A stretch of 23,497 bases of DNA, from the IMG/VR virus record IMGVR_UViG_3300030451_006972, positions 23,652 through 47,148 of that record; one strand, written 5' to 3'. The position numbers were made by a program, and so were the translations under genes. The notes under the pieces are model-generated. The model saw nothing but the letters and a program-made list of their open reading frames with translations, searched no databases and was not told the origin of the DNA. The number at the start of each line of letters is the position of its first letter. The stretch's first letter is position 1. Below are positions 8,954-12,669 of the stretch, piece after piece. The DNA comes from a virus.

Positions 8954-9049
8954 TGGCTGGAGGGGAAGGATTCGAACCTTCAAGGTGCATTTTCATGAAT
9001 CACCGCCCGGGAAACAGCCGGGTGCGTTTGCCAATTCCGCCACCCCCCA
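8954..9049 (-). tRNA. Class II (long variable arm) tRNA with anticodon GUU
   Basis: A complete 96-base cloverleaf with encoded CCA can be folded. The acceptor TGGGGGG (9049-9043) pairs with CCCTCCA (8964-8958) with one G-U; the discriminator is G73. The D-arm (GCGG, AATTGGCAA, ACGC) is of leucine type, the anticodon stem CCCGG/CCGGG is perfect, and the loop CTGTTTC (9017-9011) gives anticodon GTT. The variable region is 24 bases with a GGTG/CACC stem, and the T-arm is GAAGG-TTCGAAT-CCTTC. GUU, U1-A72 and G73 fit asparagine, but tRNA-Asn is normally class I, and U37-C38 are unusual. A T-rich run follows the CCA. Its amino acid is therefore uncertain. Confidence 0.88.
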
Positions 9050-9159
9050 TAAATAAAACCGGTTTTCTGTCTAGAACTAGGATAACCGGAAACCTTTGCC
9101 TACGTGACGATCGGCAACCACGTCCTGCTTATAAAGCGAGCAGAACAGCGCTTTGGGAA
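9050..9159 (-). other. Non-coding leader between the cysteine-rich peptide and the class II tRNA
   Basis: No gene is seen in these 110 bases. On the minus strand CCGGTT (9089-9084) and AACCGG (9064-9059) can pair as a 6-bp stem around a 19-base loop that itself contains the palindrome CTAGTTCTAG, and TTTTATTT follows. It may act as a weak terminator or as a processing hairpin before the tRNA. Confidence 0.3.
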
Positions 9160-9222
9160 TTATTTGCAGCAGCATTCGCACTCACAAGGTGCAACGCAGC
9201 CACAACAGTCACATTTTTTCAT
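9160..9222 (-). CDS. Cysteine-rich 20-residue micropeptide
   Basis: The ATG at 9222 follows a strong ribosome site (GGGAGG, 8 bases away) and reads MKKCDCCGCVAPCECECCCK before TAA. Nine of twenty residues are cysteines, in CxCC, CxC and CCC arrangements, with three acidic side chains between them. This looks like a metal-binding or metallothionein-like peptide that acts in the cytoplasm. I know no named family for it. It sits alone between the sulfotransferase and the tRNA. The good ribosome site and the composition argue that it is real; its small size keeps the call tentative. Confidence 0.6.
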   Translation of the reverse strand: MKKCDCCGCVAPCECECCCK

Positions 9223-10496: not shown

Positions 10497-10572
10497 TGGC
10501 TGCCCCTCGCGGGCTTGAACCGCGGACCCAATGATTAACAGTCATTTGCTCTACCAACTGAGCTAAGGGGCA
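10497..10572 (-). tRNA. tRNA-Asn (GUU), canonical class I
   Basis: The 76-base cloverleaf includes an encoded CCA. The acceptor TGCCCCT pairs perfectly with AGGGGCA, the discriminator is G, the D-loop contains AGTTGGTA, the anticodon stem-loop is AATGA-CTGTTAA-TCATT with GTT, and the T-arm is CGCGG-TTCAAGC-CCGCG. U1-A72, G73 and the CUGUUAA loop match normal bacterial tRNA-Asn. It is transcribed from a promoter whose start point is about 2 bases before the mature 5' end, and the next gene begins directly after it. Confidence 0.97.
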
Positions 10573-12335: not shown

Positions 12336-12669
12336 TGGTGGAGGCGGCGGGAGTCGAACCCGCGTCCGTAATAAATCCAAAATTAAGTCATTCACAAGCT
12401 TAGCCAGTTAATGTCACTTACTGACAAAGTTAGGAAGTTATAAAACAACGCTTACTTCCCTGTTGCGTTGAGTTTTTTGATTTTAACAACTTATCTGTTG
12501 TTTTGATTAGATTGGATAGAAGGCTCTAATCTGCCTCCCTACTAAGCGGCTAAGCGCTGTTCGAAGTGTAAGTTGTTATTTGCAACTAAATTATTTGAAC
12601 TATTAAGGCTGTATCTTACCTGCTTGCATTTAATATTTTCAATACCACGTCGAAACCTGAGTCACCCCC
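12336..12669 (-). ncRNA. ssrA: Transfer-messenger RNA (tmRNA), complete
   Basis: This 334-base RNA has all end signatures of one-piece tmRNA. The 5' end GGGGGUG pairs with CGCCUCC at the 3' end over seven base pairs with two wobbles, followed by A73 and encoded CCA. The 5' domain contains CAGGTTTCGACGTGG, and the 3' domain has GGACGCGGG and the T-arm GCGGG-TTCGACT-CCCGC. The segment CTAAGCTTGT before the 3' domain matches the usual tmRNA layout. The tag frame at 12583-12542 begins with GCA after TTTAGTT. tmRNA with SmpB rescues stalled ribosomes and tags the broken product; no smpB is visible here, so host SmpB is presumably used. Confidence 0.97.
12542..12583 (-). other. tmRNA tag-peptide reading frame
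   Basis: Thirteen codons plus TAG read ANNNLHFEQRLAA, beginning at the GCA resume codon. The C-terminal LAA is the classic end recognised by ClpXP and related proteases. The middle part differs from the common ANDENYALAA-type tags. Confidence 0.92.

Follow-up and report, generated by a model that had tools for sequence, protein, structure and literature searches.

Class II tRNA-Asn(GUU) genes with leucine-type bodies in phages and the AsnRS core gene that often precedes them

In a 23,497-nt stretch of marine phage DNA (hereafter the window), which forms part of a 47-kb virus record, we confirmed an intact and conserved class II tRNA carrying Asn features on a Leu-type body. It belongs to a large group of phage tRNAs, most of which come with a dedicated enzyme, something that the single window could not show to the first-pass annotation made from these letters alone. 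To our knowledge, a long variable arm is normally found in bacteria only in the tRNAs for Leu, Ser, Tyr, and Sec; this phage group breaks the rule for one amino acid, and most of its members bring their own AsnRS core. We infer, at slightly under even odds (a probability of about 0.45), that these are functional phage tRNAs that accept Asn and read AAC/AAU codons, with body and loop rebuilt to escape host recognition or cleavage. If this function holds, the viruses carry a ready-made private charging set, which would allow a direct test of the reasons for which tRNAs are retained in phage genomes and provide a possible source of new orthogonal pairs; the pair occurs in three isolated Prochlorococcus phages and is therefore open to testing now. 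In open-licence papers, we found no description of this class II tRNA-Asn type or of its pairing with an AsnRS core.

Structure of the window tRNA

The window features on which the analysis rests are listed below.

8954..9049 (-): class II tRNA-Asn(GUU), CCA included (CCA at 8954-8956); ARAGORN and Rfam RF00005, kept in seven other contigs
9011..9017 (-): its anticodon loop CUGUUUC, from the sequence; anticodon GUU at 9013-9015, U37 at 9012, C38 at 9011
8982..9005 (-): its 24-nt variable region, a hairpin plus two unpaired nt on the 3' side (Leu register), from the sequence and register counts
10497..10572 (-): canonical class I tRNA-Asn(GUU), loop CUGUUAA; ARAGORN and Rfam (67.1 bits)
9057..9156 (-): conserved structured RNA directly 5' of the class II tRNA; alignment A1, 38 relatives

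ARAGORN called a tRNA-Asn(gtt) at exactly the ends 8954-9049(-), and the gene scored 47.9 bits with Rfam RF00005 (cut-off 29). The acceptor stem UGGGGGG/CCCUCCA contains U1-A72 and is accompanied by G73 and an encoded CCA, whereas the loop CUGUUUC comprises U33, the anticodon G34 U35 U36, and then U37 and C38. The variable region is paired at its base by GGTG/CACC and leaves two unpaired nt before the T arm, and the D arm is of Leu type, with A20a in its loop. Among the marks of bacterial tRNA-Asn, GUU, G73, and U1-A72 are all present, and neither A37 (modified to t6A) nor the short class I variable loop is found. The tRNA-Leu marks are likewise divided, as the Leu-type D arm and the variable arm with two unpaired 3' nt are there and A73 and a Leu anticodon are replaced by G73 and GUU; the tRNA-Ser marks, namely a single unpaired 3' nt after the variable arm and C72, are absent, position 72 being A.

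These observations bear out the first-pass annotation, which had described a class II body with a long variable arm and a Leu-type D-arm joined to GUU, U1-A72, and G73, a loop with U37 and C38 instead of the usual purine-37, and a normal tRNA-Asn(GUU) in the same phage. It had also named homologs with a Leu or Ser anticodon as the sign of an error or a decayed gene. None was seen. Of 61 related loci, fetched via the neighboring PhoH-like gene, seven (L012, L017, L024, L030, L040, L068, and L070) share this class II GUU tRNA; compensatory changes have occurred in its anticodon stem and variable arm, and its loop always reads YUGUUUC. Conservation of this kind rules out both a sequencing error and a decayed Leu/Ser gene.

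The class II tRNA-Asn set and its synthetase core

A pattern combining a Leu-type D arm with U33 and GUU downstream of it was searched in 2.9 million viral contigs, for which the matches listed are a lower bound, and in 84,980 species genomes, where 11 stretches matched. Together with the window group, these matches comprise at least 73 distinct intact class II tRNA-Asn(GUU), mostly from marine phages. Among the 73 listed, G73 occurs in 72, U1-A72 in 63, and C2-G71 in 39, and the conservation of the D arm and U33 is partly imposed by the pattern itself. A variable-arm stem of at least 3 bp forms in the Leu register in 62/73 and in the Ser register in 1/73. U37 was found in 56/73, versus 5/263 class I tRNAs of the same loci (Fisher p 2e-42, only nominal because the sequences are related). 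The motif U36-A37-A38 is kept by 13/73, ten of which have the full UAAU, compared with 36/42 class I Asn tRNAs with U8/G8. In a control scan, this body was combined with A, C, or U at position 34, again with U36, and three of about 90 distinct matches were intact tRNAs; hence, for the anticodons compared, the tRNA type is indeed confined to GUU. Most of the other control matches look like interrupted tRNA-Leu genes or fragments, which does not explain the GUU set, and BLAST matches in mycobacteriophages were set aside as ordinary class I tRNA-Asn having anticodon-arm and T-arm sequence in common.

A third class II Asn(GUU) set, with A37 or G37, comes from phage and Bradyrhizobium tRNA arrays and from Microvirga and Xanthobacteraceae, where its members stand alone or in arrays. 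In Bradyrhizobium sp. Ai1a-2 (L191, 427-6253), and also in the viral contig L167, there is a 22-tRNA array with class swaps, the L191 array combining class II Asn, Lys, and Met tRNAs with class I Leu tRNAs. Phage and plasmid tRNA array units (PMC12803027, PMC5966550) resemble the tRNAs described here in having bodies unlike those of host tRNAs, and some include a class II Asn (L191); they differ in comprising dozens of tRNAs, in having A37 or G37, and in an Asn gene that has no adjoining AsnRS core.

Unexpectedly, the commonest neighbor of the class II tRNA-Asn is a gene for an AsnRS catalytic core. In 44 of the 70 non-redundant class II loci, the gene immediately upstream, in the same orientation and at a median distance of 10 bp, encodes one and the same protein family. 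The protein is a class II aminoacyl-tRNA synthetase core, about 271 aa long (PF00152, E 6e-14 to 2e-16), and is assigned to phrog_29758, a family annotated without function. Its AlphaFold2 model (mean pLDDT 88.9) best matched the AsnRS of Pyrococcus horikoshii (1x54, E 4e-17, TM-score 0.79 on the query), its loop QTGQMWLE resembles the QSSQLYLE of AsnRS and is without the lysine of the AspRS loop QSPQLYKQ, and the residues R88, E90, H98, R207, and R263 are invariant in the protein alignment. The protein starts at the catalytic core and therefore has no counterpart of the N-terminal anticodon-binding domain of AsnRS. A 2010 comparison of cyanophages tabulated this gene as 'tRNA ligase' (T4-GC 194) in P-SSM2 and P-SSM7 (PMC3037559); an RNA-repair ligase beside the tRNA, as the name might suggest, is ruled out, the gene being an aminoacyl-tRNA synthetase core. 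The adjacent tRNA of P-SSM2 and P-SSM7, for which the annotation is either simply tRNA-Asn or absent, is like that of the window a class II GUU tRNA with U37 and G73, but sits behind the AsnRS core gene, which the window lineage does not have.

The linkage was also observed in the reverse direction, by a protein-only search from which the best 80 of at least 598 confirmed loci were kept, with tRNAs behind the core genes sought as cloverleaves with no anticodon condition. A tRNA followed the core gene in 76 of these best 80 loci, and in two of the four others an Asn-like class II tRNA overlaps the reading frame. The distinct enzyme-linked tRNAs of the best 80 loci all have GUU, G73, and U1-A72 (47/47), and nearly all start 4-10 nt past the stop codon (46/47); U37 is present in 38/47, and C or G takes the place of U33, a near-universal residue in tRNAs, in 3/47. 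Loci with C33 or G33 downstream of the AsnRS core gene are L367, L370, L381, L383, and L437. Isolated Prochlorococcus phages with the pair are P-SSM2, P-SSM5, and P-SSM7, and the paired tRNA is the only tRNA of P-SSM2 (252 kb) and likewise of contigs of 47-145 kb. Two very large phage records, of 735 kb (L359, 2001-2828) and 484 kb (L360, 2001-2795), encode proteins related to the AsnRS core (48% and 46% identity, respectively), with no tRNA found beside either.

From their adjacency, the AsnRS core and the class II tRNA-Asn have the appearance of a private enzyme-tRNA set. PylRS-tRNA-Pyl and SepRS-tRNA-Cys likewise match a dedicated synthetase to a tRNA of its own, although those pairs are cellular and serve a new or indirectly made amino acid, whereas in the phages the enzyme is a viral AsnRS core and the anticodon an ordinary sense one. 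Stand-alone synthetase cores without an anticodon domain are known as well, such as GluQ-RS, EpmA, and archaeal asparagine synthetase A, none of which charges a tRNA 3' end for translation; the phage core differs from them in having a tRNA gene within 10 nt.

Proposed charging, decoding, and escape from host factors

Across the set, the anticodon, G73, and, in most members, U1-A72 are retained while the body differs. In bacteria, the anticodon together with G73 confers Asn identity (PMC9976931), and Asp-tRNA-Asn is marked for amidation by U1-A72. Charging of the window-type tRNA with Asn is our best guess, and it fits better than charging with Leu or Ser because such tRNAs sit 4-10 nt behind a stand-alone AsnRS core in many phages. 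In those phages, the co-directional upstream core, devoid of an anticodon-binding domain, most likely charges the class II tRNA-Asn; in the window lineage, host enzymes appear to do so.

As to escape, a class II Leu-type body together with a loop that has neither A37 nor A38 would cause host factors that recognize or cleave normal tRNA-Asn to fail. Positions 36-39 read UAAU in the canonical tRNA-Asn of the window versus UUCC in the class II tRNA, so that U36-A37-A38 and U36AAU39 are both present in the former and neither in the latter. The first of these motifs is needed for t6A in human mitochondria (PMC7102964), where the rules may differ from those of bacteria, and the second lies at the cleavage site of AriB, for which distal parts of the tRNA also matter (PMC12409363). 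AriB targets Lys(UUU), Thr(UGU), and Asn(GUU) tRNAs, and the phage T5 versions of these overcome PARIS (PMC12409363); a distinctive variable loop shields the T5 tRNA-Tyr from retron-Eco7 (PMC11555353, PMC13096335). The T5 tRNA-Lys/Thr/Asn set against PARIS-AriB and the T5 tRNA-Tyr set against retron-Eco7 and Septu are, as here, phage tRNAs of an attacked isotype with changed loops, although in these papers (PMC12409363, PMC11555353, PMC13096335) they exhibit local substitutions on a normal body, whereas here the tRNA class itself has changed and a charging enzyme often stands alongside. By this analogy, nuclease resistance of the class II tRNA-Asn would fit. Several points speak against the rebuilt-tRNA reading: U37, and C33/G33 in three enzyme-linked tRNAs, should weaken decoding on the ribosome; the AsnRS core is absent from the window-lineage records examined; U36-A37-A38 survives in the 13/73 class II tRNAs given above, with the full UAAU in ten; and we know of no tRNA-Asn nuclease in these hosts.

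A wider proposal, which we advance tentatively, is that marine phages possess a natural orthogonal AsnRS-tRNA pair, in which an anticodon-blind minimal synthetase would serve a class II tRNA-Asn(GUU) that host AsnRS and nucleases ignore, possibly feeding a non-decoding reaction; the window lineage would have kept the tRNA alone or converged on it. The window tRNA matches the enzyme-linked type in class II body, GUU, G73, U1-A72, and U37, and the Leu core, U37, C38, G73, and U1-A72 are common to it and many enzyme-linked tRNAs, but no AsnRS core gene lies directly upstream of it. No PF00152 match was obtained in the window-lineage records G000 (47 kb), G001 (195 kb), G003 (162 kb), and G012 (69 kb), nor any phrog_29758 match in these four and eight further records (one of 185 kb). 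A first tRNA tree of 60 columns suggested that the window type is kin to class I tRNA-Asn, but AU tests on the same columns favored neither descent from enzyme-linked tRNAs nor descent from class I tRNA-Asn (p 0.58 and 0.61).

The relaxation of U33 and purine-37 speaks against tuning for decoding and leaves a non-decoding role as a serious, if unlikely, rival. Here, the tRNA would be charged with Asn and act mainly as an amino-acid donor or regulator outside the ribosome, as special glycyl-tRNAs serve cell-wall synthesis in staphylococci. Besides the U37 and lost U33 of the enzyme-linked tRNAs (38/47 and 3/47), their standing as sole tRNA of P-SSM2 and of the 47-145 kb contigs is unlike codon supply. 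However, GUU is invariant (47/47) and the enzyme core should be unable to read it, which argues for some other reader of the anticodon. U8, TTCRA, and the elbow G18-G19 are also kept, which the searches partly required.

The first-pass annotation had offered mischarging with Ser or Leu at AAC/AAU codons, whereby host SerRS, through the long arm and G73, or LeuRS would place these amino acids at Asn codons. The window tRNA does combine a large variable region, G73, and G2-C71, all Ser elements in E. coli, with a Leu-type D loop containing A20a. Leu charging is nevertheless disfavored by G73, a LeuRS antideterminant, and Ser charging by the variable-arm geometry, which is in the Leu rather than the Ser register (62/73 against 1/73), as well as by A72 in place of C72 and by C2-G71, a SerRS antideterminant, in 39/73; the partner enzyme of other phages is moreover of AsnRS type. 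Mischarging is thus improbable, and the earlier interpretation is partly supported: the class II tRNA is genuine and has Asn identity features and a non-purine 37, whereas charging with Ser or Leu is disfavored. Of the other options in that annotation, nuclease resistance would fit the data, and a non-translational role gains some weight from the loss of U33 in 3/47 enzyme-linked tRNAs.

It is similarly hard to credit that the GUU loop is a decoy occupying host tRNA-Asn nucleases or toxins with no part in translation. GUU is constant while the flanking loop positions vary, and the AriB study raised competition by certain viral tRNAs as a possible means of inhibiting AriB (PMC12409363); yet a dedicated charging enzyme would then be superfluous, and the substrate motifs are lost, not kept.

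Exchange of tRNA bodies at the locus and the neighboring RNA

The slot of the class II tRNA is occupied in other relatives by a class I A8 tRNA-Asn (YUGUUAC), an ordinary tRNA-Asn, or a tRNA-Thr(UGU), or is empty. Placed on the PhoH protein tree, the five slot states imply no fewer than 20 changes, and even if only well-supported branches are counted, three are needed for the class II state; in L013, whose PhoH is 96% identical to that of the window, the slot holds the A8 class I form. Hence, tRNA bodies have been exchanged at a fixed locus, and across the 61 relatives the slot has repeatedly been refilled by differently built tRNAs, most often another Asn(GUU). The pattern would fit nuclease escape by analogy with the T5 tRNAs. 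The A8 form is itself a second odd tRNA-Asn(GUU) type, a class I tRNA with A8 for U8, the loop YUGUUAC with C38, and an unusual D arm.

L013 8490-8566; L037 9401-9477; others at the same locus: A8 class I tRNA-Asn(GUU)

The structured RNA directly 5' of the window tRNA was seen only in the phage group of the window and had no Rfam match. In the alignment of 38 relatives, 91.4% of cells are paired and covariation exceeds that of all shuffled and slid versions. Its approximately 95 nt form two hairpins, each with a pseudoknot partner, followed by a CCGGTT/AACCGG stem whose loop contains, for most relatives, a 6-nt palindrome that varies in sequence (among others TCTAGA, CCATGG, TCGCGA, CATATG, and GACGTC), as would be appropriate for dimerization through kissing loops. 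The function of this RNA is probably separate from that of the tRNA, and a role as general partner of class II tRNA-Asn is ruled out, other class II loci being without it. That the tRNA is mainly a processing tag setting the 3' end of this RNA is the least probable of the readings. In the window group, the RNA does stop only a few nt short of the tRNA, and a tRNA-Thr takes the same place in other relatives, but many relatives have the RNA with no tRNA following and other class II tRNA-Asn loci have no such RNA.

Just upstream of the structured RNA, at 9160-9222(-), lies a 20-aa cysteine-rich reading frame, MKKCDCCGCVAPCECECCCK, which is similar in L003/L068, partly so in others, and lost in many relatives. 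The window additionally encodes a phage tmRNA at 12336-12669(-) with the predicted tag ANNNLHFEQRLAA, variants of which are found in most relatives.
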